A program made the position numbers and the translations under genes. A stretch of DNA of 59,958 bases from positions 1 through 59,958 of the forward strand of contig NZ_WPIK01000019.1 in the NCBI RefSeq assembly GCF_009754915.1, in the 5' to 3' direction. How positions within the stretch are numbered: the first letter of the stretch is position 1; every line of letters starts with the position of its first letter. Origin of the DNA: Mucilaginibacter arboris (GTDB lineage Bacteria > Bacteroidota > Bacteroidia > Sphingobacteriales > Sphingobacteriaceae). The notes under the pieces were generated by a model. The model ran no database searches. It was not told the DNA's origin and saw only the letters and a list, made by a program, of their open reading frames with translations. This document shows, in pieces, positions 5,350 to 58,276 of the stretch.

Positions 5350-5545
5350 GTCGAAGAACGGGAATTTGAAATCCGTTAGCCCGGACCAAAGTTAAATTAA
5401 TGTTTAATTGTTGATGCTTCTTTTACCAGCTAAATTTTGTTCCTTCTGCTAAAACAAAAGCTGATGTTGAAACTGTCGGCCAGTTTTTTTGCCAAATCCA
5501 TATTAGCGGTCCGCTGTTCTTCTTCATCTGTCTATTCAGTTAAAA
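5350..5545 (-). repeat. Composite repeat B, copy 1
   Basis: Read on the minus strand, this stretch matches 49400-49580 on the plus strand: an AATATGG.TTTGGCAAAA block, GCAGAAGGAACAAAATTTAG, a short repeat (TGGTAAAAGAAGCATCAAC), AACTTTGGT, and TTTCAAATTCC.GTTCTT. It fills the upstream region of the AraC gene. The two copies differ by small indels, so both are old. Confidence 0.7.
5413..5437 (+). repeat. Short interspersed repeat (GATGCTTCTTTTACC type)
   Basis: Reads GATGCTTCTTTTACCAGC followed by TAAATTT. This copy lies inside composite repeat B and upstream of the AraC regulator. Confidence 0.75.
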
Positions 5546-6435: not shown

Positions 6436-7176
6436 ATGGTAAATAGTGCCCTGACAGAAGAAAGCAGACGAATAGAGATGTTGTTGTTAAAAAATGAAGA
6501 AAATAGTAATAAAAAAAGAGTGTTTGCCGATAGAAAAAGGACTAATATTTTAAGCGCGCCGGAAGAAAGAACAATTTTTTACCTGGTAAAAAAAGTACCG
6601 GGTTTTATTACTTCTAACATGCTTACCGGCATTGGTATTGCAGGCAGCGTAATTGTTTTAATTGGTTTTATCCTGGCTAATTATGTAGATCGAAGTTTTC
6701 TTTTATTAGGCGTTATTGGTTTGGTTATCAATTGGTTGGGTGATTCTTTAGACGGACGGATTGCTTATTACCGCAACCAGCCACGCAAATGGTTCGGTTT
6801 TTCTTTGGATATTATTATGGATTGGATTGGCACCGTATTAATCGGATTAGGTTATCTGGTTTACTCTCAGAACGAATATGAATTATTAGCTTTTATTTTT
6901 GTGGTTTTGTATGGATGGGCGATGATCATCTCTCAACTTCGTTATAAAATTACCGATAACTATACGATTGATTCAGGTTTGTTTGGCCCAACAGAAGTCC
7001 GCATATTAATTGCGCTGATTCTTGTTCTGGAAGTTGCCTTTCCGGATTCCATCAAGGTTTGTGGTTTAGTAATGTGCCTCGCACTTTTCATTATCGATCT
7101 AATAGATACCAACAAGCTTTTAAAATTGGGCGATATGCGCGACCAGGCAGAAATGGCTGCTAAAAGAAGCATTTAA
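6436..7176 (+). CDS. CDP-alcohol phosphatidyltransferase family membrane protein
   Basis: 246 aa integral membrane protein. The CDP-alcohol phosphotransferase signature is present as GDSLDGRIAY..(8)..GFSLDIIMD, i.e. D-x2-D-G-x2-A and G-x3-D-x3-D, with the usual arginine after the alanine replaced by tyrosine. About six hydrophobic helices start near residue 55, after a charged 50-residue N-terminal tail. It probably transfers a phospho-alcohol onto, or from, CDP-diacylglycerol in the inner membrane. The substrate is unknown. It is translationally adjacent to the GtrA gene. Confidence 0.85.
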   Translation: MVNSALTEESRRIEMLLLKNEENSNKKRVFADRKRTNILSAPEERTIFYLVKKVPGFITSNMLTGIGIAGSVIVLIGFILANYVDRSFLLLGVIGLVINWLGDSLDGRIAYYRNQPRKWFGFSLDIIMDWIGTVLIGLGYLVYSQNEYELLAFIFVVLYGWAMIISQLRYKITDNYTIDSGLFGPTEVRILIALILVLEVAFPDSIKVCGLVMCLALFIIDLIDTNKLLKLGDMRDQAEMAAKRSI

Positions 7177-7644: not shown

Positions 7645-7860
7645 ATGGAAGCTATTCAAATTTCCGGGATTTTTAAAAATGCTATTTGTCGTGCTAAACC
7701 GTTAAGCGAAAACCTGTACAGCATTACGAAGGATACTGTTTTTATAGGTAAAATTTTAAAAGAAAACGGCGGCTGGAACCTGGAAGAAGTTGCCGGGGAA
7801 GATTTAACTGCGGAAAATGTACAGCTAATTGGGGCTTATATCGATAAAAAACGCAGGTAA
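7645..7860 (+). CDS. Small hypothetical protein
   Basis: 71 aa from the ATG at 7645 (an in-frame TTG lies three codons upstream). A short mixed alpha/beta-looking sequence (MEAIQISGIFKN..LYSITKDTVFIGKILKENGGW..) ending in a KKRR tail. No signal peptide or membrane segment and no family recognised. It lies 39 nt after the GtrA gene, possibly as the last gene of that operon. Confidence 0.55.
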   Translation: MEAIQISGIFKNAICRAKPLSENLYSITKDTVFIGKILKENGGWNLEEVAGEDLTAENVQLIGAYIDKKRR

Positions 7861-7911: not shown

Positions 7912-7935
7912 TTTTTTACCGGTAAAAGAAGCATC
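7912..7935 (-). repeat. Short interspersed repeat
   Basis: TTTTTTACCGGTAAAAGAAG followed by CATC, with the symmetric core TTTTACCGGTAAAA. It lies between two convergent genes. Confidence 0.8.
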
Positions 7936-8486: not shown

Positions 8487-8512
8487 AATTTTATGCCGGT
8501 AAAAACAGCATC
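8487..8512 (-). repeat. Short interspersed repeat (ACAG variant)
   Basis: ATTTTATGCCGGTAAAAACA followed by GCATC. It lies in the 277-bp gap (8280-8556) between divergent genes. The rest of that gap shows no gene. Confidence 0.75.
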
Positions 8513-9422: not shown

Positions 9423-9446
9423 TTTTTTGCCCGTAAAAGAAGCATC
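9423..9446 (-). repeat. Short interspersed repeat
   Basis: TTTTTTGCCCGTAAAAGAAG followed by CATC, 20 nt after the hydrolase stop codon. Confidence 0.75.
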
Positions 9447-13935: not shown

Positions 13936-13962
13936 GATGCTGTTTTTATCGGTATAAAATTT
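13936..13962 (+). repeat. Short interspersed repeat (TGTT variant)
   Basis: GATGCTGTTTTTATCGG followed by TATAAAATTT, 3 nt after the stop of the fusion gene and just upstream of the repeat-protein/nuclease cassette. Confidence 0.8.
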
Positions 13963-13996: not shown

Positions 13997-14338
13997 ATGT
14001 CAACAACAATTCATCGCGGCAGGTCAACAAGTGGCAGCGACATCCTTTATACTTTTGATGGTAAAAGTATTTTTAAAGGTAAATCAACAAGTGGTAGTGA
14101 TACCCTTTATACTTTTGATGGAAAACATATTTACAAAGGCAGGTCAACAAGTGGCAGCGATATAATTTTAACAACTGACGGGAAATCAATTTACAAAGGA
14201 CGATCAACAAGTGGCAGTGATGTTTTATATACGTACGATGGAAAGACTTTATTTAAAGGTAAATCTACGAATGGTAGTGATGCTCTTTATACTATTCAAG
14301 GTTTGATTCCCGTAGGATTATTGGCAATACTAATTTGA
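13997..14338 (+). CDS. Tandem 20-residue repeat protein
   Basis: 113 aa made almost entirely of five copies of a 20-residue unit, KG(R/K)STSGSDxLYTFDGKxI(Y/F), with a short hydrophobic C terminus (IPVGLLAILI). Copies are also similar at the DNA level. The regular alternation of a polar turn (STSGSD) with a short strand (LYTFDGK) suggests a small beta-solenoid or beta-hairpin array; short proteins of this design exist in several phyla without known function. No signal peptide. It is followed 5 nt after its stop by the ATG of a putative PD-(D/E)XK protein, so the pair is one transcription unit, bracketed by short interspersed repeats. Confidence 0.75.
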   Translation: MSTTIHRGRSTSGSDILYTFDGKSIFKGKSTSGSDTLYTFDGKHIYKGRSTSGSDIILTTDGKSIYKGRSTSGSDVLYTYDGKTLFKGKSTNGSDALYTIQGLIPVGLLAILI

Positions 14339-14925: not shown

Positions 14926-14950
14926 AATTTATACCGATAAAAGAAGTATC
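14926..14950 (-). repeat. Short interspersed repeat, left arm of an inverted pair
   Basis: AATTTATACCGATAAAAG followed by AAGTATC, starting at the stop codon of the nuclease-like gene. Together with the next copy (14963-14988) it can form a hairpin GATAAAAGAAGTATC / GATGCTTCTTTTATC. Confidence 0.8.
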
Positions 14951-14962
14951 AGTTTTTTTGTT

Positions 14963-14988
14963 GATGCTTCTTTTATCACCCAAAAATT
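14963..14988 (+). repeat. Short interspersed repeat, right arm of an inverted pair
   Basis: GATGCTTCTTTTATCACC followed by CAAAAATT. It overlaps by two bases the stop codon of the convergent GLPGLI gene. The paired arms may serve as a bidirectional terminator. Confidence 0.8.
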
Positions 14989-18665: not shown

Positions 18666-18683
18666 GATGCTGTTTTTATCCTG
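18666..18683 (+). repeat. Short interspersed repeat (TGTT variant), left member of an inverted pair
   Basis: GATGCTGTTTTTATCCTG. It pairs with the adjacent reverse copy at 18684-18708 to form an inverted-repeat unit upstream of the barrel gene. Confidence 0.75.
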
Positions 18684-18708
18684 ATTTTATACCGGTAAAA
18701 GAAGCATC
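18684..18708 (-). repeat. Short interspersed repeat overlapping a stop codon
   Basis: ATTTTATACCGGTAAAAG followed by AAGCATC. On the minus strand the TGA stop of the lipoprotein gene (18707-18709) overlaps the GATGCTTC end of this repeat. Confidence 0.8.
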
Positions 18709-19663
18709 AGCTTGTATAACCCCGAACCACTAATAAGATCAAACTATCATGCGCAATACCTAAGGTTTTGCCTGGCGTAATATCCAGATAAAGTTTTAGG
18801 TATCCATCCATAATTCCTTTCATTACTTTGATTATATTTTCCTTTTCATCCGGAAACATTTCTTCCATCGGTTCTACAAAATGCATTTGTCCTTTTGCAT
18901 CAACCTGAACTGCAAAAGTGTGGTAAAAGTCTGCATAAGCTTGATGGATCGTAATACTGTATTCAGGATAAAACAACGTTTCGGGGATGTAGTAACTATC
19001 CAGATCTTTAGCCTTTACCTTTGCATTGGTAACTGCAACATTTGTGCTTTTACTTTTTAATGTAACCGGTTGCTGTGCTGCAAATATTTTTTTGGGATTA
19101 TGCGAAGAGGCGATTGCCAGAGCCCGGATATAAGCCGTATCTTTTTTGGTGGTTCCTTGCAGTGTTTTAGCTTTTTTATGCAATATGTTTTTAAGATAAT
19201 CCTCCGCATAAAAAGTAACGTAAACGTTTGAGTTTTTCCAGCTGATGACCTTGTTTTTTACCGAAAGCACCTGGAAAAAAAGGCTGTCTTTGTTGATTTT
19301 CCTGGCTTTAAACCAGGCGCCGCCCATGTTAAAAATGGAATCGTGGTCTAAAGTTACCGGCAGTTCGTAGTAACGTTTTTTAATATCACTGTACAAATTA
19401 ACAACCGTATCAGATACAAAGTATAATTTCCAGGATGGTTTTAACTGATAACCTTGCGCATTAAAAGAAACGCCGTTATCAAAACGGCGGTAAACTTCTG
19501 TAAAACGGATCCCTGAAATAGTTTTGAAAGAAGTTTTAGTCCTGGCTATCCGTTGTTCGTTGGATTCTTCGGCTGCTGGCGAATGTTTTTCATTAACTTT
19601 TTGTTTACATGAGAAAATGGTAAACACAATAAAATTCAGTATAAAAAAGGAAAAATACTTCAT
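18707..19663 (-). CDS. Hypothetical lipoprotein
   Basis: 318 aa from the ATG at 19663 (MKYFSFFILNFIVFTIFSC), a lipoprotein signal peptide with the acylated cysteine in IFSC; the frame upstream to 19696 runs only through a short repeat. The mature part is a soluble alpha/beta-looking domain with no recognised family (blocks such as FRFTEVYRRFDNGVSF-like and IPETLFYPEYSITIHQAYADFYHTF). Its last codon and stop lie in a copy of the short interspersed repeat. Probably anchored in the outer membrane. Confidence 0.7.
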   Translation of the reverse strand: MKYFSFFILNFIVFTIFSCKQKVNEKHSPAAEESNEQRIARTKTSFKTISGIRFTEVYRRFDNGVSFNAQGYQLKPSWKLYFVSDTVVNLYSDIKKRYYELPVTLDHDSIFNMGGAWFKARKINKDSLFFQVLSVKNKVISWKNSNVYVTFYAEDYLKNILHKKAKTLQGTTKKDTAYIRALAIASSHNPKKIFAAQQPVTLKSKSTNVAVTNAKVKAKDLDSYYIPETLFYPEYSITIHQAYADFYHTFAVQVDAKGQMHFVEPMEEMFPDEKENIIKVMKGIMDGYLKLYLDITPGKTLGIAHDSLILLVVRGYTS

Positions 19664-19690
19664 ATAAAAATAGTACCGATAAAAACAGCA
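19664..19690 (-). repeat. Short interspersed repeat (ACAG variant)
   Basis: ATAAAAATAGTACCGATAAA followed by AACAGCA, immediately upstream of the lipoprotein start codon. Confidence 0.7.
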
Positions 19691-19793
19691 GGACAAATCA
19701 AACTTTGCTTAATTTTTTGTTTTAATTTTTTTTAATAAACGCCAGCTCTTATCAAAATAATAATTAATTTGCTTAAAAATCAATTTAAAAAGT

Positions 19794-20373: not shown

Positions 20374-20787
20374 ATGAACAATATCGGCAAGACAGAGGAA
20401 CAGCTTAACCTGGCAGAACTGTCAAAAAAAATCCCATTGGTTGAAGAGCGTTTAAATGTTGGTGTAAGGCAGGTAGAAACCGGTACCGTCCGGATCAATA
20501 AAAAAATAATATCCCAGGAAGTAAGCCAGGAAATTCCGGTTACACAAGAAGAAGTACACGTAGAACGGATTGCTATCAATGAATATGTTGAAACCGCACC
20601 TGCAACCCGTTATGAAGGCGATACTACCATAATTCCGGTGGTAAAAGAAGTATTGGTAGTAGAAAAACGACTGATGCTGGTAGAAGAACTGCGCATTACC
20701 AAAAAGCATGTTACTACAACAACTACCATTAACGAGTTGCTTCGAAAAGAAGAGATCGAGATCAGCAGAATAGACACAACACAATAA
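20374..20787 (+). CDS. DUF2382 (YsnF/AvaK-type) protein
   Basis: 137 aa consisting of a DUF2382 domain: IPLVEERLNVGVRQVETGTVRINKKI.., V-x-V-E-R-I-x-I-N, then IPVVKEVLVVEKRLMLVEELRITKK. These domains occur in bacterial general-stress proteins (YsnF-like) and are usually cytosolic. It is 40 nt upstream of a second, larger DUF2382 protein, so the two probably form an operon. Molecular role unknown. Confidence 0.85.
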   Translation: MNNIGKTEEQLNLAELSKKIPLVEERLNVGVRQVETGTVRINKKIISQEVSQEIPVTQEEVHVERIAINEYVETAPATRYEGDTTIIPVVKEVLVVEKRLMLVEELRITKKHVTTTTTINELLRKEEIEISRIDTTQ

Positions 20788-22296: not shown

Positions 22297-22320
22297 TAAA
22301 AACAGTATTGCTATTAATAC

Positions 22321-22540: not shown

Positions 22541-22565
22541 ATTTTTATCTGGTAAAAGAAGCATT
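22541..22565 (-). repeat. Short interspersed repeat
   Basis: ATTTTTATCTGGTAAAAG followed by AAGCATT. It lies about 25 bp before the point where the toxin-like gene becomes recognisable. Confidence 0.75.
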
Positions 22566-22880: not shown

Positions 22881-22985
22881 TTTAAAGCATGAAGAATTAA
22901 TTCAAAAAATTGAAAAAGGCTTGGATTTAACTTTTAAAAAATTGAAGTTGTTTAAACTTTTTTTTTGGCCCTCTTTTTTGGGGCC

Positions 22986-23010
22986 GATGCTTCTTTTATC
23001 GCCTAAAAAT
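22986..23010 (+). repeat. Short interspersed repeat inside element A
   Basis: GATGCTTCTTTTATCGCC followed by TAAAAAT. Confidence 0.8.
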
Positions 23011-23056
23011 CACTAAAGACCTATAAGGTTTTCAAAACCTTGTAGGTCTTTAGTGA
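23010..23056. repeat. 47-nt palindrome inside element A
   Basis: Arms TCACTAAAGACCTATAAGG / CCTTGTAGGTCTTTAGTGA around TTTTCAAAA, with one mismatch. The same palindrome occurs in the second copy near 46866-46914. Confidence 0.85.
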
Positions 23057-23071
23057 TTAAATGTAAACACC

Positions 23072-23095
23072 AATTTTACCCGGTAAAAGAAGCAT
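23072..23095 (-). repeat. Short interspersed repeat inside element A
   Basis: AATTTTACCCGGTAAAAG followed by AAGCAT. Confidence 0.8.
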
Positions 23096-23255
23096 GGGCA
23101 CTAAACCTGGGCATGCCGGAGAACCAAATTTAAATGGGCCCAAAAAGTTTAAACAACCTCATTATTAAAAGCCAAACGCCAAACTGGTGGTGTTTTTGTT
23201 TTTTCTGAGAATGGTGTTATCAGGAAAGTCAAGGCTGAAGATGTAAAGGAATAAA

Positions 23256-23300: not shown

Positions 23301-23326
23301 ATAAAAATAGCCGGTAAAAACAGTAT
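23301..23326 (-). repeat. Short interspersed repeat (ACAG variant)
   Basis: ATAAAAATAGCCGGTAAAAA followed by CAGTAT, 8 nt downstream of the clpB stop codon. Confidence 0.8.
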
Positions 23327-26163: not shown

Positions 26164-27510
26164 TTGGACAAGCTCTTTTTTAAAAAAATACCTGCCGGAT
26201 CAAAAGCACAATTTCAGTCTTTTTACCTGCTTCAAAATTTACAAGTAATCAAAATATTTAGTTCCATTTTTTTTTGTTTGAACTTATTTTTACGCATCGT
26301 TTCCTTTTTTTACCAAAAAGATTTAAGCGCTTTTAAATATTACCAGGAACACAACTTTGTAAATTGGATGCATTTACTGGTTTTGCCTTTATTCCTTTTT
26401 CTGGATAGATTACTGTTGATGGCCTATCAGCATAAAACAAAAATCACTATATACGTTACCAGAATTTTTACAATTGCTTTTGGAAGTTATCTTGTAATTA
26501 GCGGTATGTTAACCAGTTTTATGGCGATGCATAATCCGCATAATACCTTAACTTTTTTTATGGTTGCTTTGATCATTACCGCCGGAACATTGGTTTTTGA
26601 AGTGCCGGAAGTAATCATCATCATTGCTGTTATAGAAGCAGTATTTTATGCTTTATTAAAGTTCAATATTGCTAACAACACAGATTTTATCTACAACATT
26701 CTGGCAAGTATAGTATTATCGACCGGTTTTTATATGGTCTCCAGGTATCTCTATACTTACAAATTCAAGAATTTTTTGCAGCTGATCCAAATCGAGCAAA
26801 ACAATATTGAGCTGCAAAAAGCTAGCAACTTTAAAAATGAAGTGCTTGGAATGGTTGCACATGATCTGCGGAATCCGATTGCCGCAATCGAATCTATTGC
26901 TTCGCTGATGGAGATGGACGAGCTTGACAAAGAAACGGGAGAGAACGTAACGATGATTAAAGCATCGTGTGTAAAGGCACGTGAAATTGTAAACGAACTG
27001 CTGGAAGCTGCGCGTGATGAAAGCGATTTAGAACTTGTAACAACCGTGGTTAATGTAAATGAGTTGCTGGTGAGTTTGGTTAACGAATGGAAAAATCAGA
27101 ATGTGGGTAACGAGATTGTTTTTGTATCTGCGGATAAAAACAGCTACTCCAATATTAATACTGAAAAATTTCATCGCGTTTTAGATAACCTGATTACCAA
27201 TGCTGTTAAGTTTTCAGAGCCGGAAGGCAAAATAGAAGTCAGGTTAACAGAAGTTAAGCAAGATGTTTGTATTGAAGTAAAAGATTACGGTATTGGTATT
27301 CCTCAGCATTTATTACCTTATATTTTTGATCGTTTTACCAAATCAAGCCGTAAAGGTTTACGGGGAGAAAAATCAACCGGTTTAGGATTAAACATTGCAC
27401 GCCGGATTGTAGAAAAACACGGCGGAACGATGGAAGCAGAAAGCATAGAAAACGAGGGTTCCATTTTTCGCATCTGTTTACCAAAGGCCGATGCTTCTTT
27501 TACCGCCTAA
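26164..27510 (+). CDS. Membrane-bound sensor histidine kinase
   Basis: 448 aa. About six transmembrane helices span residues ~25-205, with no large periplasmic domain. The kinase core follows: H-box MVAHDLRNPIAAIE (phospho-acceptor H233), N-box DNLITNAVKFS, G1 DYGIGIP, F-box FDRFTKSS, G2 GLGLNIA. No ATG fits the N terminus; a TTG at 26164, after an in-frame stop, is the likely start. No response regulator is adjacent (orphan). The last residues, ADASFTA-stop, are encoded by a copy of the short interspersed repeat. Confidence 0.9.
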   Translation: MDKLFFKKIPAGSKAQFQSFYLLQNLQVIKIFSSIFFCLNLFLRIVSFFYQKDLSAFKYYQEHNFVNWMHLLVLPLFLFLDRLLLMAYQHKTKITIYVTRIFTIAFGSYLVISGMLTSFMAMHNPHNTLTFFMVALIITAGTLVFEVPEVIIIIAVIEAVFYALLKFNIANNTDFIYNILASIVLSTGFYMVSRYLYTYKFKNFLQLIQIEQNNIELQKASNFKNEVLGMVAHDLRNPIAAIESIASLMEMDELDKETGENVTMIKASCVKAREIVNELLEAARDESDLELVTTVVNVNELLVSLVNEWKNQNVGNEIVFVSADKNSYSNINTEKFHRVLDNLITNAVKFSEPEGKIEVRLTEVKQDVCIEVKDYGIGIPQHLLPYIFDRFTKSSRKGLRGEKSTGLGLNIARRIVEKHGGTMEAESIENEGSIFRICLPKADASFTA

Positions 27511-27514
27511 AAAT
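27490..27514 (+). repeat. Short interspersed repeat forming the 3' end of a coding sequence
   Basis: GATGCTTCTTTTACCGCC followed by TAAAAAT. The first 21 bases encode DASFTA and the TAA stop of the histidine kinase; it also abuts the convergent helicase gene. Confidence 0.85.
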
Positions 27515-29800: not shown

Positions 29801-30342
29801 TGCGGATAATTGGAGGACGTTTAAAAGGGTTACGCTTAAACCCACCCAATAATTTACCGGTGAGGCCAACAACAGACCTGGCCAAAGAAGCATTGTTTAA
29901 CATTTTAAACAATCTGCTGGATTTTGAAGGTTTAAAAGTGCTTGATCTATTTAGCGGGACCGGGAATATTGCGATGGAATTTGCTTCGCGAAATGCAGAA
30001 AAAGTAGTAGCGGTTGACCGTGCAGCACAATGTATATATTATTTAAAAGATATGGCAGCCAAACATCAACTGCCTGAAATTATCACTTTTAAAGCGGATG
30101 TTTTTAAGTTCCTGGAATTGGAAACCGATCAATACGACGTTATTTTTGCTGATCCGCCTTACGATCTGGATAAAATTCCACAATTGCCAAATGCTGTTTT
30201 TATCCGTAATTTGTTGTTAACTAATGGTTTGTTAATTATAGAACATCCATCTTATCAAAATTTAAGCAATCAGCCTAATTTCAGCGAAAAAAGAATTTAT
30301 GGAAATACTGCTTTTTCTTTTTTTAAAATTGAAGGTGTTTAA
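29800..30342 (+). CDS. rsmD: 16S rRNA (guanine966-N2)-methyltransferase RsmD
   Basis: 180 aa. Starts MRIIGGRLKGLRL followed by RPTTDLAKEALFNIL, the RsmD signature. SAM-binding motif I LDLFSGTGNIAMEFASR and the N6/N2-methylase catalytic motif DPPY (FADPPYDLD). It methylates G966 of 16S rRNA in the small-subunit assembly intermediate. It overlaps the upstream DUF3822 gene by one nucleotide, so the two are translationally coupled. Confidence 0.95.
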   Translation: MRIIGGRLKGLRLNPPNNLPVRPTTDLAKEALFNILNNLLDFEGLKVLDLFSGTGNIAMEFASRNAEKVVAVDRAAQCIYYLKDMAAKHQLPEIITFKADVFKFLELETDQYDVIFADPPYDLDKIPQLPNAVFIRNLLLTNGLLIIEHPSYQNLSNQPNFSEKRIYGNTAFSFFKIEGV

Positions 30343-30360: not shown

Positions 30361-30386
30361 ATATGCTTCTTTTACCATATAAAAAT
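30361..30386 (+). repeat. Short interspersed repeat
   Basis: ATATGCTTCTTTTACCAT followed by ATAAAAAT, 19 nt after the rsmD stop. Confidence 0.75.
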
Positions 30387-30422: not shown

Positions 30423-30444
30423 ATACAGGCATAAAAGAAGTATT
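30423..30444 (-). repeat. Short interspersed repeat, degenerate
   Basis: ATACAGGCATAAAAGAAG followed by TATT. It makes a loose inverted pair with the copy at 30361-30386. Confidence 0.6.
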
Positions 30445-32357: not shown

Positions 32358-32382
32358 AATTTTACCGGCGTAAAAGAAGCAT
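32358..32382 (-). repeat. Short interspersed repeat
   Basis: AATTTTACCGGCGTAAAAG followed by AAGCAT, between the NUDIX gene start and the terminator of the next minus-strand gene. Confidence 0.75.
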
Positions 32383-33714: not shown

Positions 33715-34110
33715 ATGACTGTTATTGAAAGTAAAGTTACCATTAATGCACCTGCTGCATCGGTTTATAATTTTTTAGCTGATCTGAATAATCATCATCA
33801 GTTAATGCCCGAAAACGTGGTGGGGTGGACAGCCACAAAAGATGAAGCCCGTTTTAATATCCAAAATATGGCCAAGCTTGTTCTACAGGTTAGCAACCGT
33901 AACCCAAACGAAATTTTGATTAATGCAGTAGAAGCGCCACCTTTTCCGCTTGAACTAAAATGGCAGATAAAAGAAGCAGGTACGCAAACGCAGGTTTTCT
34001 ACACCATTTCTGCTGATATGAATATGATGATGAAAATGCTGGCAAGTGGCCAGTTACAAAAATTGGCCGATTTTGAAACCCAAAGGTTGAAGGAGCTGGT
34101 TACGAAGTAA
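33715..34110 (+). CDS. SRPBCC-fold (polyketide cyclase/START-like) protein
   Basis: 131 aa. MTVIESKVTINAPAASVYNFLADLNNHHQLMP... with a long C-terminal helix (MMKMLASGQLQKLADFETQRLKELV), the typical helix-grip pattern of SRPBCC proteins. It probably binds a hydrophobic ligand. Ligand and role unknown; adjacency to pyrE suggests cotranscription. Confidence 0.8.
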   Translation: MTVIESKVTINAPAASVYNFLADLNNHHQLMPENVVGWTATKDEARFNIQNMAKLVLQVSNRNPNEILINAVEAPPFPLELKWQIKEAGTQTQVFYTISADMNMMMKMLASGQLQKLADFETQRLKELVTK

Positions 34111-34122
34111 GCTTTCGTTAGC

Positions 34123-34148
34123 AATGCTTCTTTTACCACATAAAAATC
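34123..34148 (+). repeat. Short interspersed repeat
   Basis: AATGCTTCTTTTACCACA followed by TAAAAATC, 12 nt after the SRPBCC gene. Confidence 0.8.
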
Positions 34149-35337: not shown

Positions 35338-35371
35338 CCATACTGTTTTTATGCCGGTAAAAACAGTATGG
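35338..35371. repeat. Perfectly palindromic double copy of the short repeat
   Basis: Two 14-bp arms CCATACTGTTTTTA / TAAAAACAGTATGG around TGCCGG. It lies 9 nt after the thioesterase stop and could fold into a strong hairpin. This is the cleanest palindromic form of the ACAG variant in the window. Confidence 0.85.
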
Positions 35372-37999: not shown

Positions 38000-39205
38000 T
38001 TATTTATACAATACGTATTTCTGTCGCATTGCTTTATAACGGCTTAATTCTGGTTCCCAGCTTTGGCGGATTTCTTTTTCACTTTTGCCTGCCATAATTT
38101 GTTCCTTAAAAAGAGTAGTCCCGGCAAGCTTATCAATGTTTCCCATCTGTTTACTTTGCGACATATCAAAGAATTTTTCTTTATACGGATAGGCTTTATA
38201 TAATTCCATCATCCATTTTAAATTGATCTGCCCGCTTTTATGCAGTTTTACTGTATTGTAATTCCTCAAATCCAATCCGTAACAAACCTCATTCTGATGC
38301 AACGGTGTTTCAGATTTTCCTGGAATGCTTACCGGTGTAAAAGAAAACGGATAAATCCCTTTCAAATCCGGGCTGCCTAAAACCGTAAAAGGCATGTAAG
38401 TACCGCGGCCCTGGCTAATTGTTGTACCTTCAAACAAACATAATGACGGATAAAGTAAAACCGATTGCTGCGTATTGAGATTTGGGGAAGGATTTACAGG
38501 CAAAACGTAATCCAGGTCATGCATGTAATTTTTTACAGGTATTACTTTGATTTTGCACTGCATTTTATCCGGAAGCCAACCTTCGCCATTAACCATTTGC
38601 GCAAATTCGCCAATCGTCATTCCGTGTGTAATTGGAACCGGAAACCTGCCAATTCCAGATTTTAACTTCATATCCAAAACCGGACCATCAACAAAAGCAT
38701 TTGGGTTTGGCCGGTCCAAAATGATCAATTCTTTTCCGTTCTCGGCACAAGCTTCCATCACATCAGCCAGCGTATTAATGTTTGTGTAGAAGCGACAGCC
38801 AACATCCTGAATATCAAAAATCATGATGTCAATCGCATCCATGTCTTTTTTAGAAGGTTTTCTTTTTTGACCGTAAAGGGAAATAACCGGAATGCCAGTT
38901 TCTGCATCAATCTCATCGGTAACTTTTGCACCGTTACTGGCGTTGCCGCGAAAGCCATGTTCCGGGCCGAAAATTTCTTTTATACGGATGCCCAGTTTCA
39001 GCAAACTGTCTACACTTGGGACCAACCTTGTTCCAATTACAGAAGTTTGATTGATCACCATTCCCACATTTTTCCCTTTTAAAAGCGGTACGTACAATTC
39101 TGTTTGATCGGCACCGGTTTGTATAGTTGGATTTTGTGCACAACAAAAATTAGCCTGTAAAAGAAGCATGCCAACAACCAGAAAAAGTAGCTTTCTGTTT
39201 CTCAT
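38000..39205 (-). CDS. DUF1343 / NamZ-type exo-beta-N-acetylmuramidase, secreted
   Basis: 401 aa from the ATG at 39205 (MRNRKLLFLVVGMLLLQANFCCAQ signal peptide; an earlier TTG gives seven extra residues). Family blocks: GKNVGMVINQTSVIG, IFGPEHGFRGNASNGAKV, IDIMIFDIQDVGCRFYTNINTL, ILDRPNPN, YLPVNPSPNLNTQQSVLLYPSLCLFEGTTISQGRGT. NamZ-type members remove terminal MurNAc in peptidoglycan recycling. Part of the signal-peptide coding sequence (MLLLQANF) is a copy of the short interspersed repeat. Confidence 0.88.
   Translation of the reverse strand: MRNRKLLFLVVGMLLLQANFCCAQNPTIQTGADQTELYVPLLKGKNVGMVINQTSVIGTRLVPSVDSLLKLGIRIKEIFGPEHGFRGNASNGAKVTDEIDAETGIPVISLYGQKRKPSKKDMDAIDIMIFDIQDVGCRFYTNINTLADVMEACAENGKELIILDRPNPNAFVDGPVLDMKLKSGIGRFPVPITHGMTIGEFAQMVNGEGWLPDKMQCKIKVIPVKNYMHDLDYVLPVNPSPNLNTQQSVLLYPSLCLFEGTTISQGRGTYMPFTVLGSPDLKGIYPFSFTPVSIPGKSETPLHQNEVCYGLDLRNYNTVKLHKSGQINLKWMMELYKAYPYKEKFFDMSQSKQMGNIDKLAGTTLFKEQIMAGKSEKEIRQSWEPELSRYKAMRQKYVLYK
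39145..39169 (-). repeat. Short interspersed repeat inside a signal-peptide coding region
   Basis: AAAAATTAGCCTGTAAAAG followed by AAGCAT on the plus strand; on the minus strand it encodes MLLLQANF of the NamZ-like signal peptide. Confidence 0.75.
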
Positions 39206-39238: not shown

Positions 39239-39264
39239 AATGCTTCTTTTATCAGGTAAAAATT
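39239..39264 (+). repeat. Short interspersed repeat
   Basis: AATGCTTCTTTTATCAGG followed by TAAAAATT, in the gap between the divergent namZ-like and permease genes. Confidence 0.8.
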
Positions 39265-41752: not shown

Positions 41753-41778
41753 AATGCTTCTTTTACCCGATAAAAAAT
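41753..41778 (+). repeat. Short interspersed repeat overlapping a start codon
   Basis: AATGCTTCTTTTACCCGA followed by TAAAAAAT; its last two bases are the first two of the ATG of the J-domain gene. Confidence 0.8.
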
Positions 41779-42499
41779 GTTATTTCCAACTAAAACTAAT
41801 ATTTATGCTGATGAAACGGTTAAAGTTTTAGAACGGGAAATTGCTGCGCTGGAAGCGGAACTGATTGAATTAGAAACAGAGGTAAACGTTTTTCAATTGC
41901 AAATTCAATCTGCTTTATCAACCCAAATCCACCGGATCCAGGAATTAACAGTTTTATATAAAAATCAAAAACAGGCAAAAAAACTAAAACGCTTAGAACA
42001 GAAAAAGCGCGGCAAAAACTACCGGGAACCAGTTAGTTTGAAAACCCGCAATGCTTCTTTTACCGCACAAAATTTGGTTTCTGCGGATGACCGGCAGGAA
42101 CTAAAACGATTGTATAAAGAAGCCATCGTGCAAATCCATCCTGATAAATTTGTGGATGCTGACAATGAATTAAATGAACGCGCAACGGCTGTAACCGTAA
42201 AATTGAACGAGGTTTATAAAAGCGGAGATTTGGAAGAACTGAACCGTTTGCACGAGCATATCATCAGCGGAAATGCTTTAACTTATGTTCCTGATCGGCC
42301 CAAAACGATAAATGATTTGTCTGCTTTGATGCTGTTTTTACAGCAGAAAAAACAGAAACTGCAACACTTACTGCAAGAAATTAAAACTTCTGCTATCTAT
42401 AAGTTATTTGAAAGCCGAAAAGATATACGGGCATTAATTCAGGAATTAAAAATTCAGTTTGAAGAACGCATTGTTGTGCTGGAAAAGAGAACGAAATAG
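41777..42499 (+). CDS. J-domain protein with coiled-coil flanks
   Basis: 240 aa. Residues ~1-85 form a coiled coil (TVKVLEREIAALEAELIELETEVNVFQLQIQ..). A J-like domain follows at ~105-160 with the HPD motif in EAIVQIHPDKFVDADNELNERATAVTVKLNEVYKSGD. A second helical segment ends the protein. It probably stimulates a DnaK ATPase or is a structural J-like protein. Two short-repeat copies lie in it: one at the start codon and one encoding NASFTAQN near residues 92-99, in the linker before the J domain. Confidence 0.8.
   Translation: MLFPTKTNIYADETVKVLEREIAALEAELIELETEVNVFQLQIQSALSTQIHRIQELTVLYKNQKQAKKLKRLEQKKRGKNYREPVSLKTRNASFTAQNLVSADDRQELKRLYKEAIVQIHPDKFVDADNELNERATAVTVKLNEVYKSGDLEELNRLHEHIISGNALTYVPDRPKTINDLSALMLFLQQKKQKLQHLLQEIKTSAIYKLFESRKDIRALIQELKIQFEERIVVLEKRTK
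42050..42075 (+). repeat. Short interspersed repeat inside a coding sequence
   Basis: AATGCTTCTTTTACCGCA followed by CAAAATTT; it encodes NASFTAQN in the linker between the coiled coil and J domain, the same peptide (ASFTA) that ends the histidine kinase. Confidence 0.8.
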
Positions 42500-42557: not shown

Positions 42558-43322
42558 ATGACTACTACAAATATCAATACAATCAACCAGGAAAACGACG
42601 ACTTAAAAGAAACACTTGTTTTCTTACATTATTTTGGAGGATCTGCGCAAAGTTGGTTAGGGGTAATGGCACTTTTACAGAACGACTTTAATTGCATTGC
42701 GCTAAATTTGCCTGGCTTTGGCGGAGAACCAGCTTTGCCAGAACCTTCTATTGCTAATTATACTTCTTTTATCAGGGAAAAATTAGAATCGCTTAATATT
42801 GAATCTTATGTTTTGATCGGACATTCCATGGCCGGAAAAATTGCGGTTGATGTTGCAACCAATGAACCAAACTTTGCAGTAAAACAATTGATTTTAGTGG
42901 CGCCTTCCCCGCCAACAGTAGAACATATTTCGGATGAGGAATTGCAACGGATGCTGCATCATCCCAACCAAATAGAAGCAGAAACAACAGCAAGAAAAAA
43001 CACCTTAAAACGATTAACGCAAGAACAATACGAGCTGGTAATTAAGAATAATTTGGAAACAGACCAGAATACCTGGAATTGGTGGTTAACGGAAGGCGTG
43101 AACCATTCAATAGCCGACGATGCTGCCCATTTGTTTTTGCCAATTACGGTTTTGGCTTCCGAAGACGACCCTGCAATTAGTTTTGAAAGTACTTTGAAAG
43201 AAACCATGCCGCATTTGCCGGATGCCAAATTAATTACAACAAAAGGAGTAGGGCATTTAATTCCGATGGAAGCGCCGGAATGGCTGGCAGAACAAATTAA
43301 GCTGGCAATCATCAAAGAATAA
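42558..43322 (+). CDS. Alpha/beta hydrolase
   Basis: 254 aa from the ATG at 42558 (the frame is open 33 codons earlier, overlapping the previous gene, but without family similarity). Oxyanion region FLHYFGGSAQSW, nucleophile elbow GHSMAGK (serine), acid near ASEDDPAI, catalytic histidine in GVGHLIPMEAP. Typical cytosolic esterase/C-C hydrolase-like protein; substrate unknown. Confidence 0.85.
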   Translation: MTTTNINTINQENDDLKETLVFLHYFGGSAQSWLGVMALLQNDFNCIALNLPGFGGEPALPEPSIANYTSFIREKLESLNIESYVLIGHSMAGKIAVDVATNEPNFAVKQLILVAPSPPTVEHISDEELQRMLHHPNQIEAETTARKNTLKRLTQEQYELVIKNNLETDQNTWNWWLTEGVNHSIADDAAHLFLPITVLASEDDPAISFESTLKETMPHLPDAKLITTKGVGHLIPMEAPEWLAEQIKLAIIKE

Positions 43323-44451: not shown

Positions 44452-44477
44452 AATTTTTAGGTGATAAAAGAAGTATC
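44452..44477 (-). repeat. Short interspersed repeat
   Basis: AATTTTTAGGTGATAAAAG followed by AAGTATC, between the GH5 terminator and a decayed lipoprotein gene. Confidence 0.75.
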
Positions 44478-44818: not shown

Positions 44819-45428
44819 ATGCCCCAACCTTTTAATTTTTCTGCCGATTACGTGTTAGAAGATGATTTTGTAAAGCTTCGTCCAGTAAAAGAAAGCGATT
44901 ATGAAAACCTTCTTCCTTTTGCTTTAAATGAACAAGAGATATGGAAATATTCTTTAGTTCCAACAGCAGGTGCAGAAAACTTAAAAAATTATATCGATGC
45001 TACATTGGCTGCGCGGGAAGCAGAAAAAGAATATCCGTTTATTGTGTTTTGATAAGCGCCAGAAAAAATATGCCGGAAGCACACGCTTTTACGATATACA
45101 ATTGCATAAATAGACGCTGCAACTGGGTTACACCTGGTACGGAAAAGCTTTTCAGGGTACAGGTTTAAACAAGCACTGCAAGTTTTTACTGCTGCAATTT
45201 GCCTTTGAAAAAATTGGAGTGGAAAGGGTAGAGTTTCGGGCAGATAACAACAATAAAAGAAGCATTGCCGCCATGCAAAGTATCGGTTGCACGGTAGAAG
45301 GCGTACTTCGAAGCCATGCACCTACGCACGATGGAAAACGGCGAGACAGTATTATTTTAAGTATTTTAAAAGACGAATGGTTTGGTACGGTAAAAGAAGC
45401 ACTGGCAGCTAAAATCAGGGTAAAATAG
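44819..45428 (+). pseudogene. GNAT (RimJ/RimL-type) acetyltransferase with frameshift and internal stop
   Basis: The first part (44819-45052) encodes the N-terminal half, LEDDFVKLRPVKESDYENLLPFA.. to EYPFIVF. The frame is then lost at GTGTTTTGATAAG, where one T fewer would give FDKRQKKYAGSTRFYDIQ. In the second frame a TAG (about 45112) interrupts LHK/TLQLGYTWYGKAFQGTGLN before the acetyl-CoA region, followed by an intact C-terminal half to 45428 (VERVEFRADNNNKRSIAAMQSIGCTVEGVLRSH). Two lesions make decay likelier than a single sequencing error. Confidence 0.75.
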
Positions 45429-46721: not shown

Positions 46722-46746
46722 AATGCTTCTTTTATCGGTAAAAATT
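46722..46746 (+). repeat. Short interspersed repeat
   Basis: AATGCTTCTTTTATCGGT followed by AAAAATT, with a degenerate reverse copy just upstream (46701-46721); both flank element A copy 2. Confidence 0.75.
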
Positions 46747-46825
46747 GATGTCTGATTGATGAGGTTGTTTAAACTTTTTGGTACCAATTAAATTTGATCC
46801 TCCCGGGATGCCTAGGTTTGGTGCC

Positions 46826-46850
46826 CATGCTTCTTTTACAGAGTAAAATT
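46826..46850 (+). repeat. Short interspersed repeat inside element A copy 2
   Basis: CATGCTTCTTTTACAGAG followed by TAAAATT. Confidence 0.75.
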
Positions 46851-46970
46851 GGTGTTTGTATTTAATCACTAACTGGACCTATAAGGTTTTCAAAACCTTA
46901 TAGGTCTTTAGTGATTTACCGAGTAAAATTGGTGTTTACATTTAATCGATCAAAAAAACAATGGTTAACA

Positions 46971-46995
46971 TTTTTTAGGTGATAAAAGAAGCATC
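46971..46995 (-). repeat. Short interspersed repeat inside element A copy 2
   Basis: TTTTTTAGGTGATAAAAG followed by AAGCATC. Confidence 0.8.
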
Positions 46996-47025
46996 AACCT
47001 AAAAAATCAAAATTTAATGGCCAGC

Positions 47026-47050
47026 ATTTTTAGGTGATAAAGGAAGCATC
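47026..47050 (-). repeat. Short interspersed repeat inside element A copy 2, duplicated
   Basis: ATTTTTAGGTGATAAAGG followed by AAGCATC, a diverged duplicate of the copy at 46971-46995. Confidence 0.75.
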
Positions 47051-47204
47051 GGCCCCAAAAAAGAGGGCCAGAAAAAAGTTTAAACAACTTCGATCTTTAA
47101 ATTAAAAGTTATGTAAAATAAGCATCATAAGTTTTTTGATTTAGACAAGTGTTTAATTGCTTACCAGTTAAACAAAAGTTTTATTGTTAAGTTGTATTAC
47201 AACT

Positions 47205-47690: not shown

Positions 47691-48215
47691 ATGTTATCAG
47701 AAAACCCGGTTATCCTAACCTTAAAAATTAATGATGACGCTGCCGCTTATTTTACAGAATTAAGAAAAAAACATTTTCCTGCAGAGCGTAATTATTTAGA
47801 TGCACATTTAACTTTGTTTCATCATCTGCCACCAAATGAACCTGCAATTTTAGAGGTGGTAAAAACAGTATCTCTCCGGCAAAACCCAATGGTTTTACAA
47901 GTTATGCAAGTAGTAAGCATCGGCGCCGGTGTAGCTTTTAAGTTGCAAAGTGAAGCGTTGCTAATAATGCATAAAAACCTGCAACAACAATGGCAGGAAT
48001 GGCTTACACCGCAAGATCAGCAAACCTTATGGCCACATATAACTGTTCAAAATAAAGTTGACAGGCAAAAGGCAGTTGGGTTACAACAAGAGTTGAGCAA
48101 AGATTTTAAACCTTTTGAAATACAAGGTTTAGGGTTAACAATTTGGGAATATTTGGGCGGGCCGTGGCAAAAAATAGAAACTTTAAATTTTGACGATCAG
48201 GTTTTGAACCAATAA
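47691..48215 (+). CDS. 2H phosphoesterase (2'-5' RNA ligase-like)
   Basis: 174 aa with the two characteristic H-x-T motifs, HLTLFHHLP near residue 44 and HITVQNK in the second half, as in 2'-5' RNA ligase/cyclic phosphodiesterases. Probably hydrolyses cyclic phosphates in RNA or nucleotides. Probably cotranscribed with ppa. Confidence 0.85.
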   Translation: MLSENPVILTLKINDDAAAYFTELRKKHFPAERNYLDAHLTLFHHLPPNEPAILEVVKTVSLRQNPMVLQVMQVVSIGAGVAFKLQSEALLIMHKNLQQQWQEWLTPQDQQTLWPHITVQNKVDRQKAVGLQQELSKDFKPFEIQGLGLTIWEYLGGPWQKIETLNFDDQVLNQ

Positions 48216-48370: not shown

Positions 48371-48431
48371 CTAAACTTTTTATCCGATAAAAACAGCATC
48401 AACAAAAAGGCCGCCTTTTACAGGCAACCTT
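48371..48431 (+). repeat. Composite repeat C, copy 1
   Basis: A short repeat (TTTTATCCGATAAAAACAGC, 48376-48400) followed by AACAAAAAGGCCGCCTTTTA and CAGGCAACCT. The AAAAGGC/GCCTTTT segment can form a small hairpin. Two further copies are at 50231-50290 and 50686-50745. Confidence 0.7.
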
Positions 48432-49399: not shown

Positions 49400-49580
49400 G
49401 CACAATATGGGTTTGGCAAAAAACTGGCTGATGGAATAAACATCAACTTTTATTTTGCTATTTTGCTTTAGTTCCGGCAGAAGGAACAAAATTTAGTTGG
49501 TAAAAGAAGCATCAACATTTGAATATAAATTTAACTTTGGTTTGGTCTGACGTGTTTCAAATTCCAGTTCTTTGCCAAGC
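49400..49580 (+). repeat. Composite repeat B, copy 2
   Basis: Matches the reverse complement of 5350-5545, including CAGAAGGAACAAAATTTAG, a short repeat at 49490-49513 (TTTAGTTGGTAAAAGAAGC) and TTTCAAATTCCAGTTCTT. It starts 8 nt after the toxin gene. The reading frame seen in copy 1 is broken here. Confidence 0.7.
49490..49513 (-). repeat. Short interspersed repeat inside repeat B
   Basis: AATTTAGTTGGTAAAAGAAG followed by CATC. Confidence 0.75.
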
Positions 49581-50685: not shown

Positions 50686-50745
50686 ATAAACTTTTATCCG
50701 ATAAAAACAGCATCAATAAAAAGGCCGCCTTTTTACAAGCAGCCT
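50686..50745 (+). repeat. Composite repeat C, copy 3
   Basis: ATAAACTTTTATCCGATAAA.. short repeat (50691-50714), then AATAAAAAGGCCGCCTTTTT and ACAAGCAGCCT. It lies downstream of carA and the AAAAAGGC/GCCTTTTT part may be its terminator. Confidence 0.7.
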
Positions 50746-51905: not shown

Positions 51906-51931
51906 AAAAAAAGGTGGATAAAAGAAGTATT
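51906..51931 (-). repeat. Short interspersed repeat
   Basis: AAAAAAGGTGGATAAAAGAAG followed by TATT, 9 nt upstream of the carA start, in the carA/panB divergent region. Confidence 0.7.
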
Positions 51932-52935: not shown

Positions 52936-52981
52936 CTGCCATTCCTCCTAACATCTGAATGCCAAGAGGAATGCTTTTTTT
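52936..52981 (+). terminator. Terminator whose U-tract is a short repeat
   Basis: ATTCCTC ... GAGGAAT arms with a ~20-nt loop, followed by GCTTTTTTTATC, which is the start of the short repeat at 52970-52995. It ends panB. Confidence 0.6.
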
Positions 52982-52995
52982 ATCACCTAAAAATC
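52970..52995 (+). repeat. Short interspersed repeat containing the purE stop codon
   Basis: AATGCTTTTTTTATCACC followed by TAAAAATC. The purE stop TAG (52987-52989 on the minus strand) lies in its tail. Confidence 0.75.
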
Positions 52996-53511
52996 AGAAG
53001 GGAAACCTTCTTTTTTCATTTCAGCGGCAGCATCTTCTACTTTTTTCGCCAGTTGGTTTTTATATTGAATGAGGTTTTGAACGAGATATTCATCTCCAAC
53101 AGCTAAGATCTGTGCAGCTAAAATTCCAGCGTTTTTGGCTGCATTTAAAGCAACGGTTGCGACAGGAATACCATTTGGCATTTGCAGGATTGATAACACA
53201 GAATCCCAGCCATCAATAGAATTACCGGATTTAACCGGTACACCAATTACCGGCAAATGCGTAAGTGAAGCTACCATCCCGGGCAAATGTGCGGCACCGC
53301 CAGCACCGGCAATGATCACTTTTAAACCACGGTCGGCAGCAGATTTGGCATAACTAAACATGCGTTCAGGCGTGCGATGTGCTGAAACTACAGTTATTTC
53401 AAATGCTACGCCTAATTCTTGTAAAACATCGGCAGCATCCTGCATGACTGGCAAATCTGATTTGCTGCCCATAATGATGGCTACTTTAATAGTATTTTGT
53501 GTTTGGTTCAT
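52987..53511 (-). CDS. purE: N5-carboxyaminoimidazole ribonucleotide mutase
   Basis: 174 aa. Class I PurE: IMGSKSDLPVM, VVSAHRTPERMFSYAK, GAGGAAHLPGMVA, PVIGVPVKSGNS. It converts N5-CAIR to CAIR in purine synthesis. It is the second gene after purK (98 nt between). The last codons and the stop run into a short interspersed repeat. Confidence 0.95.
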   Translation of the reverse strand: MNQTQNTIKVAIIMGSKSDLPVMQDAADVLQELGVAFEITVVSAHRTPERMFSYAKSAADRGLKVIIAGAGGAAHLPGMVASLTHLPVIGVPVKSGNSIDGWDSVLSILQMPNGIPVATVALNAAKNAGILAAQILAVGDEYLVQNLIQYKNQLAKKVEDAAAEMKKEGFPSDF

Positions 53512-56332: not shown

Positions 56333-56357
56333 ATTTTTATGCCATAAAAGAAGCATT
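56333..56357 (-). repeat. Short interspersed repeat
   Basis: ATTTTTATGCCATAAAAG followed by AAGCATT, 10 nt after icd. With ATGCTTTTTTTG at 56376-56387 it can form a terminator hairpin (AAGCAT/ATGCTT). Confidence 0.75.
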
Positions 56358-56440: not shown

Positions 56441-56466
56441 CATGCTTCTTTTATCGGCATAAAATT
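56441..56466 (+). repeat. Short interspersed repeat
   Basis: CATGCTTCTTTTATCGGC followed by ATAAAATT, upstream of the GH13 gene. Confidence 0.8.
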
Positions 56467-56544: not shown

Positions 56545-58230
56545 ATGAAAAACGTTTGCCTCTTTTTATTGCTTTTTTTTCTTGTCTTAACGTCAGCTTT
56601 CTCCCAAAATAACCCGCCGAACAATAAGAATTTATGGTATAAAAACAGCATCATCTATAATTTGGATGTACGTACTTTTAAGGATAGCAATGGTGATGGT
56701 TACGGGGATTTTAAAGGATTAACTTCTAAGCTGGATTATTTAAAAAATTTAGGCGTTGAGATAATCTGGCTTTCGCCTTTTCAGCCTTCTCCGCTTTTAG
56801 ATGATGGTTACGACATCACCAATTTTTTTGGCATCGACCCAAAATGCGGCACAAAAAAAGATTTTGACGAATTTATGCAGCAGGCAAAAGCACACCATGT
56901 TCGGGTAATTATGGATATGGTGCTTAATCATACCTCCAACCAGCATCAATGGTTTCAGCAAGCCGAAAACAGCGATACTTCCAAATATCATTTCTGGTAT
57001 GTTTGGACGAAAACCCGTCCGAAAGATTATAACAAAGGCATGGTTTTTCCGGGGGTCCAAAAAGAAATATGGTCCTTAGACCCCAAATTGAATGAATATT
57101 ACTATCACCGTTTTTACAAGTTTCAGCCCGATTTAAACTACGATAACCCTATGGTTAAAGCAGAAGCATATCATATTTTAGGTTACTGGCTGAAGCAGGG
57201 AATGGATGGTTTTCGTTTGGACGCCGTGCCTTTTATTATTGAAGAAATGCGGCCGGGAGCAAAAAACCTGGGCCACGATTTTGATTTCATCACCCAGATG
57301 CGCCACTATGTACAAGCACAAAAACCAGATGCTTTTTTATTGGGTGAAGCCAATGTGCTGCCAAAGGAAAACCAGGATTATTTTGGTAAAAAAGGGGAAC
57401 GCATGCAAATGCTGTTTAACTTTTTTGCTAACCAGCACCTTTTTTATGCTTTAGCAACCGGTAAGTTAGATGAGTATAAAAAAGCTTTACAAGAAACCGA
57501 TAATATTCCGCCTGCCTCTCAATGGGCAAATTTTTTGCGGAACCACGATGAAGTAGATTTGGGCCGGTTAAGCAATGCACAACGCGAGCAGGTTTATCAA
57601 AAAATGGGTCCGCAAAAAAACATGCAGTTATATAACAGAGGAATCAGGCGGCGGCTCACTACGATGTTGCATAACTCTTTACAATTAAAAATGGCGTACA
57701 GCCTGTTGTTTTCTTTGCCGGGAACACCTGTCATGCGTTATGGCGATGAAATTGGAATGGGAGATGATTTAAACTTAAAAGAACGCTTGTCCGTAAGAAC
57801 GCCAATGCAATGGTCGGATGAAAAAAATGCAGGGTTTACAAATGCAGCAAAACCTTTCCGTCCGGTAATTAGTCAGGGTGAATACAATTACCACTTGGTT
57901 AATGTGGCAACAGAGCAAAAAGAGCCAAAATCATTATACAACTGGATGGCAAAACTGATAAAAATAAGAAAAACCTGCCCCGAATTTAGTTTTGGAGAAT
58001 GGGAAATTATTCCTTCCGGTTCGCCTGAAATCCTGGCTATTCAATATAATTATCTTGGAAAAACATTAATCACCTTACATAATTTCAGCAATAAAAGTGA
58101 GCAAGCAATGCTTTCTTTATCGCCCAAAAAACTAACCGATCTGCTGGAAAATAACACGAATAGCACGATAAACGGTAAATTTAAAACGGCTTTAAATGGT
58201 TATAGCTTTAAATGGTACCGTTTGAATTAG
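56545..58230 (+). CDS. Secreted GH13 alpha-amylase-family enzyme (trehalose synthase-like)
   Basis: 561 aa. Signal peptide MKNVCLFLLLFFLVLTSAFSQ, then a GH13 barrel: WYKNSIIYNLDVRTFKDSNGDGYGDFKGL, MDMVLNHTS, nucleophile D226 in GFRLDAV, acid/base E268 in LLGEAN, D335 in FLRNHDEVD, and GTPVMRYGDEIGMGDDL. A beta-sandwich domain ends the protein. The sequence around the catalytic sites resembles trehalose synthase/GH13 subfamily-16 enzymes, but secretion argues for an extracytoplasmic alpha-glucan or disaccharide role. Confidence 0.88.
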   Translation: MKNVCLFLLLFFLVLTSAFSQNNPPNNKNLWYKNSIIYNLDVRTFKDSNGDGYGDFKGLTSKLDYLKNLGVEIIWLSPFQPSPLLDDGYDITNFFGIDPKCGTKKDFDEFMQQAKAHHVRVIMDMVLNHTSNQHQWFQQAENSDTSKYHFWYVWTKTRPKDYNKGMVFPGVQKEIWSLDPKLNEYYYHRFYKFQPDLNYDNPMVKAEAYHILGYWLKQGMDGFRLDAVPFIIEEMRPGAKNLGHDFDFITQMRHYVQAQKPDAFLLGEANVLPKENQDYFGKKGERMQMLFNFFANQHLFYALATGKLDEYKKALQETDNIPPASQWANFLRNHDEVDLGRLSNAQREQVYQKMGPQKNMQLYNRGIRRRLTTMLHNSLQLKMAYSLLFSLPGTPVMRYGDEIGMGDDLNLKERLSVRTPMQWSDEKNAGFTNAAKPFRPVISQGEYNYHLVNVATEQKEPKSLYNWMAKLIKIRKTCPEFSFGEWEIIPSGSPEILAIQYNYLGKTLITLHNFSNKSEQAMLSLSPKKLTDLLENNTNSTINGKFKTALNGYSFKWYRLN

Positions 58231-58251: not shown

Positions 58252-58276
58252 GATGCTTCTTTTAGCAGGTAAAAAT
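58252..58276 (+). repeat. Short interspersed repeat
   Basis: GATGCTTCTTTTAGCAGG followed by TAAAAAT, 21 nt after the GH13 gene. Confidence 0.8.

Follow-up and report, generated by a model that had tools for sequence, protein, structure and literature searches.

How does a short repeated sequence come to write the end of a histidine kinase? In the window, the whole stretch of 59,958 nucleotides of Mucilaginibacter arboris DNA analysed here, a sensor histidine kinase ORF (HisKA, HATPase_c; 26164..27510, + strand, start codon uncertain) closes within a motif copy (27490..27514, +) made up of a core, a YCRS element and an A/T tract. The + strand of this copy reads GATGCTTCTTTTACCGCCTAAAAAT and is translated in the kinase frame as D-A-S-F-T-A-stop, with the TAA at 27508–27510 inside the copy, which bears out the proposal of a sequence-only reading of this DNA that a repeat copy gives the kinase both its C-terminus (DASFTA) and its stop. 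Since HATPase_c (Pfam) ends at residue 442 of the 448-residue protein, the repeat-encoded end is a tail beyond the domain. An orthologue of the kinase is absent from both congeners, the best partial matches having 30–36% identity, and the matches to the kinase in a scan of the named genomes were confined to distant kinases of Nostoc and Mariprofundus. The same reading had the repeat supply two other stops in the window. For purE (AIRC; 52987..53511, −) this stands, as its TAG (52987–52989, −) lies wholly within a copy of the TT variant (52971..52995, +). For the ORF at 18707–19696 (−) the contact is slighter: the copy at 18684..18708 (−) touches the TGA, overlapping it with its first bases only (...TGATGCTTC...). 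This ORF, called a lipoprotein in that reading, gave no Pfam family and no match to a strict lipobox regex, and has a looser candidate lipobox, IFSC, at its N-terminus.

The kinase copy is one of many. ATGCTTCTTTTA occurs in the window in 25 exact copies and in 18 with one mismatch, as against 0–2 and 0–3, respectively, in five first-order Markov resamplings of the window, so the repeat is far above chance. Core copies stand at 5414..5425 (+), 7923..7934 (−), 9434..9445 (−), 22553..22564 (−), 32371..32382 (−), 39158..39169 (−), 39240..39251 (+), 41754..41765 (+), 44465..44476 (−), 45254..45265 (−), 46723..46734 (+), 49501..49512 (−), 51919..51930 (−) and 56442..56453 (+); further copies are given below with the features that they illustrate. 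No RNA family was found in the window at gathering scores. Elsewhere in the window, 60-bp tandem repeats (68–75% identity to the first stretch) occupy 14018–14317 inside ORF 13997–14338, and ORF 20828–21664 matches the YsnF/AvaK domain model (TIGR02271) at a score below cut-off.

Anatomy and genus restriction of the motif

Aligned copies have some 25 bp in common and little beyond, their flanks being unconserved, and the shared part can be written ATRCT(TC/GT)TTTTA-YCRS-nn-WWWWWW(T), that is, a core followed by YCRS, a spacer of any two bases and a run of six A/T bases. In genic copies positions +19 to +22 of the tract are 93–96% A/T with A and T mixed, so that base-pair weakness is kept more than any letter. 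Core positions 5–6 are coupled: over all sampled genus DNA they read TC in 430 copies, GT in 173 and GC in 7, vs 124 expected for GC under independence, which suggests either one recogniser with two accepted readings or two recognisers. The TC and GT forms swap at the same sites between congeners; in the window, GT copies are found at 8500..8511, 22297..22308, 23315..23326, 48388..48399 and 50702..50713 (all −) and, within genes, at 30191..30202 (+), 42329..42340 (+), 47860..47871 (−) and 56640..56651 (−). Across 139 aligned copies, congener identity amounts to 0.94–0.97 at core positions 0–1, 3–4 and 7–11, to 0.71–0.84 at the degenerate positions 2, 5 and 6, to 0.80–0.92 in the AT tract (+18 to +24) and to 0.776 outside the motif, the first of these sets and the AT tract being the best protected. 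The motif core is protected in genic copies as well: among 80 genic copy-by-congener pairs the 12-mer is identical in 45 and a family 12-mer in 67, whereas phase-matched control 12-mers are identical in 158 of 1,600 (9.9%), and genic copies are 93% identical to the congeners in the core vs 80% in the flanks.

Genome-wide, the window's genome (4,163,231 bases) holds 982 exact copies on the forward and 965 on the reverse strand, whereas the reversed control pattern occurs once on the former and not at all on the latter. Two congeners hold 1055/1059 and 598/520, and each of the remaining 117 genomes of the exact-copy search at most 10. The degenerate core ATRCTKYTTTTA gives 3,246 copies in the window's genome and 3,710 and 2,655 in the two congeners, which is one per 1.1–1.4 kb (genomes of 3.8–4.2 Mb), compared to 14–69 in seven genera from elsewhere in the family, for which the reversed control yields 25–34. 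A 15-base form of the motif is present 1,229 times in the window's genome and at most three times in each of the 394 other genomes of a phylum sample that included no congener. No viral contig was found with the full motif. The possibility that other genera have dialects of their own was rejected on 11-mer counts in 15 other genomes (20–100 kb per genome; short contigs of G011, G015, G016, G020 and G022 left out), in which no 11-mer occurred more than six times. Spacing of the motif is Poisson-like (CV 0.995), and perfect copies outnumber singly mismatched ones in the samples: 193 vs 133 in 457 kb of G000, 89 vs 79 in G002 and 62 vs 31 in G001.

Gene ends, C-termini and inverted pairs

Copy density is 0.35 per kb in genes; in the gaps between them it is 2.15 where the flanking genes diverge, 2.99 where they are codirectional and 3.99 where they converge. 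Copies are concentrated within 60 bp 3′ of stop codons, in codirectional gaps with a peak 10–20 bp past the stop whichever way the copy points (26 same, 21 opposite). In the window such copies lie directly 3′ of ORFs 10598–13933 (13937..13948, +, GT form), 33715–34110 (34124..34135, +), 54856–56322 (56345..56356, −) and 56545–58230 (58253..58264, +). Among 751 called genus genes, the motif covers the codon 15 bases past the stop in 131, the stop in 41 and the codon 30 bases before the stop in 8. Copies thus do crowd gene ends, as had been claimed from the window, and the stops are the shoulder of the motif peak, not its target. Within genes, where 255 of the 638 sampled copies reside ("genic" being approximate, since genes were called with a simple codon-score script), density is 0.40 copies per kb in core vs 0.27 in accessory genes (75 vs 7 copies); in the 80 bases past genes it is 4.6 vs 6.3 (68 vs 15 copies). 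The further proposal that the repeat remodels C-termini fails in orthologue pairs having at least 60% identity and aligning to within 40 residues of the end. C-terminal lengths agree in 20 of 25 pairs with the motif at both stops, in 11 of 13 (5/5 and 6/8) with the motif at only one and in 148 of 177 with the motif at neither, and, as they agree with or without the motif, the ends are not remodelled.

Neighbouring copies less than 40 bp apart are predominantly inverted (33 inverted vs 6 direct, p = 1.4e-5, among 638 sampled copies), and 27 of these 33 inverted pairs lie outside called genes. A second inverted excess is seen at 70–100 bp (28 vs 4), with no significant one at 40–70 bp (14 vs 8) or 100–150 bp (6 vs 11). 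At 70–100 bp the inward orientation accounts for 23 of the 32 neighbour pairs, and 12 of these 23 come from the 120 kb of G001 that was sampled. Three short inverted pairs that were folded gave strong hairpins. Inverted pairs in the window include ATGCTGTTTTTA (+) with ATGCTTCTTTTA (−) at 18667..18707, an outward-facing pair forming a long hairpin at 14926..14988 (−20.8 kcal/mol with RNA parameters), two GT-form copies at 35340..35369 and an inward pair at 30363..30374 (+) and 30432..30443 (−). Some longer inward pairs sit within MITE-like elements, a few of which have GTTTAAA-type ends. One such element in the window (22947..23157) has GTTGTTTAAAC terminal repeats around an inward motif pair (22987..22998, +; 23084..23095, −) and an inner palindrome, and a second (46764..47088) has the same GTTGTTTAAAC ends and more motif copies, among them 46827..46838 (+) and 46983..46994 (−). 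The inward excess at 70–100 bp is only partly explained by MITE-like elements.

A putative uptake sequence and its rivals

The reading that we favour, with a probability just over one half, is that the motif is a site of DNA-protein recognition, working as a DNA uptake (self-recognition) sequence, that has accumulated mainly by point mutation and is held by recognition. That the motif was built largely by point mutation, is kept by recognition and is confined to the genus we regard as highly probable; an uptake receptor as the recogniser, competence of the genus and a role for the protein encoded upstream of comEC are what we infer beyond this. A surface receptor of the competence machinery would prefer DNA with the motif, and motif-bearing DNA would enter via ComEC and then replace homologous alleles, every round of uptake adding slightly to copy number (molecular drive). 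Copies would settle at the least costly places, mostly right past stop codons, so that a few would end up with a stop codon inside them, that of the kinase being an example.

As to the machinery, ComEC is found in all three genus genomes and in 22 of 24 other genomes, so its presence is not diagnostic. In the three genus genomes no N_methyl pilin was found at E ≤ 0.001 and no type II/IV secretion ATPase (PF00437) above cut-off, for which reason we do not assign the motif to the known pilus-read uptake sequences; pilin and ATPase are both present in G003, G007 and G012, which stand for three further genera of the family. The three genus genomes likewise gave no match to DUF5689, to which a Riemerella protein required for transformation belongs. 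At the comEC locus (L157:9823-13995, G000:C78) the gene immediately upstream of comEC, on the same strand, encodes a 682-residue secreted-looking protein whose N-terminus weakly matches a helix-hairpin-helix model (PF12836, E = 0.019, below cut-off) and whose C-terminus looks like an outer-membrane barrel; this protein is a possible DNA-uptake gate. A PDB sequence search with this protein gave no matches. It is matched at 14 of 15 comEC loci (in G011 partially, at 26% identity), and at the fifteenth, in G015, the contig ends less than 700 bases from comEC. Because comEC and this neighbour occur family-wide, including in genera lacking the motif, the pair cannot alone explain a genus-specific motif, and no genus-specific receptor was found.

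Copy number, genus restriction, the compact flankless motif, the excess of perfect over mismatched copies, the substitution origin set out below, strand balance, inverted pairs and the dialect-like TC/GT forms argue for uptake, as does comEC in all three genus genomes with the gene of the secreted-looking, weakly helix-hairpin-helix protein directly upstream. Arguing against it are the missing N_methyl pilin and above-cut-off ATPase, whereas the DUS of Neisseriaceae is read by a pilin, ComP (available text of PMC3630211); the failure to find DUF5689 or a genus-specific receptor; a peak past stops that exceeds what simple tolerance needs; the MITE-like carriers of copies; and the Poisson-like spacing. 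A more specific version, which we put forward tentatively, is an independent self-recognition uptake sequence that works without type IV pili through a different receptor, perhaps the comEC-upstream protein, in which case MITE-like elements with paired copies could use the same gate.

The main rival to uptake, clearly less likely, is that an abundant genus-specific protein inside the cell, one that organises the nucleoid or chromosome or serves repair or replication, binds DNA at the motif, copies arising by point mutation and being retained through selection for chromosome function. The footprint-like conservation, the presence of copies both inside and outside genes and on either strand, and the failure to find type IV pilus proteins in the genus are all consistent with such a protein. 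Chi- and KOPS-like signals are expected to show strand polarity. The motif has no chromosomal strand bias, in the 982/965 exact copies or on a 397-kb contig, where 154 family copies on the + strand vs 137 on the − strand and no strongly polar 40-kb bin led us to reject a chi- or KOPS-like role. Furthermore, thousands of sites, some of them amino-acid-changing, would seem a high price for a structural role, no candidate for the protein emerged, and the excess of perfect over singly mismatched copies is, in the accessible text of PMC1626085, unlike the sites of regulatory proteins.

Far less probable is a mobile repeat family (REP/REPIN or MITE), inserting at gene ends and decaying afterwards, an explanation in line with the insertion family of the sequence-only reading. 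Contig C1 has 121 genic copies, of which 22 have a usable protein alignment to other genera (E ≤ 1e-15, at least 45% identity), and 20 of these 22 show no gap in the majority of such alignments, a gap near the motif occurring in 4 of 85 alignments in total. The genic copies stand where other genera have other codons, and some alter amino acids. Within the genus, 182 anchored comparisons of genic copies comprise 142 in place, 34 substituted, 5 with small core gaps, 1 unalignable and none block-missing; these and the following rows are copy-by-genome comparisons in both directions, not independent events, and rows without an anchor (306 genic, 432 intergenic, 82 inward-pair) were left out. Other intergenic copies (n = 152 anchored) were kept in 110 comparisons, substituted in 8, small-gapped in 22, unalignable in 6 and block-missing in 6, and inward pairs (n = 26 anchored) were kept in 15, substituted in 2 and block-missing in 9, the 9 coming from three loci. 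On these alignments the testable genic copies arose by substitution, not by insertion, and a mobile-repeat origin is refuted for them. Genic copies in the window include 7161..7172 (−), 7733..7744 (+, ATACTGTTTTTA), 20642..20653 (−), 42051..42062 (+) and 42760..42771 (+, ATACTTCTTTTA). The idea of an insertion family can hold for some inward pairs and for a few other intergenic copies: some inward pairs 60–115 bp apart do lie in short elements, the window has two elements with repeated ends, two 150–170-bp motif-pair blocks of G001 are missing from both other species, and, as MITE-like elements carry motif copies, insertion does contribute. Y1 transposase genes are present, but in 18 of 27 genomes and with few in the genus (2, 1 and 1), and inward pairs hold only 62 of the 638 sampled copies. 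Flank conservation is lacking beyond about 25 bp.

Equally improbable is a transcription-termination or 3′-end signal, to which the peak within 60 bp past stops, the higher density in convergent than in divergent gaps and the strong hairpins of the folded pairs would point, as the two orientations are equally common past stops rather than fixed, two in five copies are genic and inverted neighbour pairs under 40 bp are few. Inverted pairs may act secondarily as terminators, as proposed for the DUS pairs of Neisseria in the part of PMC3630211 available.

Significance and likeness to known systems

Uptake sequences are the clearest sign of bacteria choosing the DNA of their own kind, and those found as experimentally established in the accessible literature belong to Pasteurellaceae and Neisseriaceae, with type IV pilus systems thought to be the readers. 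If the uptake reading is true, a third, unrelated and pilin-less case would indicate that self-recognition evolves repeatedly and through a different uptake gate, and a new lineage would be at hand in which to test whether uptake sequences bring about sex with kin or are a side effect of it. Should the uptake reading fail, a genus-restricted motif of some 3,000 copies, largely point-mutational, is a strong unexplained genomic pattern. Riemerella columbina belongs to the same phylum as the motif-bearing genus. As far as the available text of PMC7965970 goes, this species prefers its own DNA, and putative uptake k-mers are given for two Riemerella species and Flavobacterium johnsoniae, the visible ones being A-rich strings with function left open; R. 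anatipestifer is competent without pilus homologues (PMC8459023, in the part available). Apart from those k-mers, the accessible portions of the open-licence literature contained no uptake sequence that we recognised for the phylum, and no report of the motif was recognised in what they hold on uptake sequences or repeats in the lineage or phylum.

The motif resembles REP/REPIN and MITE families in that some inward pairs lie in short elements that one congener has, and another lacks, as a whole block. It differs from them in that the majority of copies stand singly or within genes and keep their position wherever this can be compared, the genic ones having been made by substitution. HIP1 of cyanobacteria is a highly iterated short palindrome that is also found within genes; iteration and genic occurrence are shared, but the motif is asymmetric and carries an AT tract. 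The closer likenesses are to uptake sequences. For DUS, the available text of PMC3630211 describes clade-specific dialects, inverted pairs and permissive intergenic DNA, and the motif likewise has thousands of clade-restricted copies, interchangeable forms, hairpin-forming inverted pairs and a preference for permissive intergenic DNA, but its sequence is unrelated, it has an AT tract and there is no ComP-type pilin candidate. USS and DUS occur about once per kb with many copies in coding sequence and with more perfect than singly mismatched copies, and USS arise by mutation, not insertion, as argued from a test of the kind applied here to genic copies, and have AT-rich motifs 3′ of the core (PMC1626085, in part); a minor pilin is predicted as the USS reader in the accessible text of PMC12616744, and PMC2346458, as far as available, describes a USS bias to termini inside genes and also names a bias to genome-maintenance genes. 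With the USS of Pasteurellaceae the motif shares a short core of strong consensus, a 3′ AT-rich tract, a density of about one per kb, genic as well as intergenic copies and an origin by point mutation. It differs in its unrelated sequence, in having one AT tract vs two, in crowding just outside genes, past the stop, rather than inside their termini, and in belonging to a genus in which no type IV pilin was found and uptake is putative. In the hallmarks tested, namely strong consensus, 3′ AT tract, about one copy per kb and inverted pairs, the motif matches the sequences of USS and DUS.
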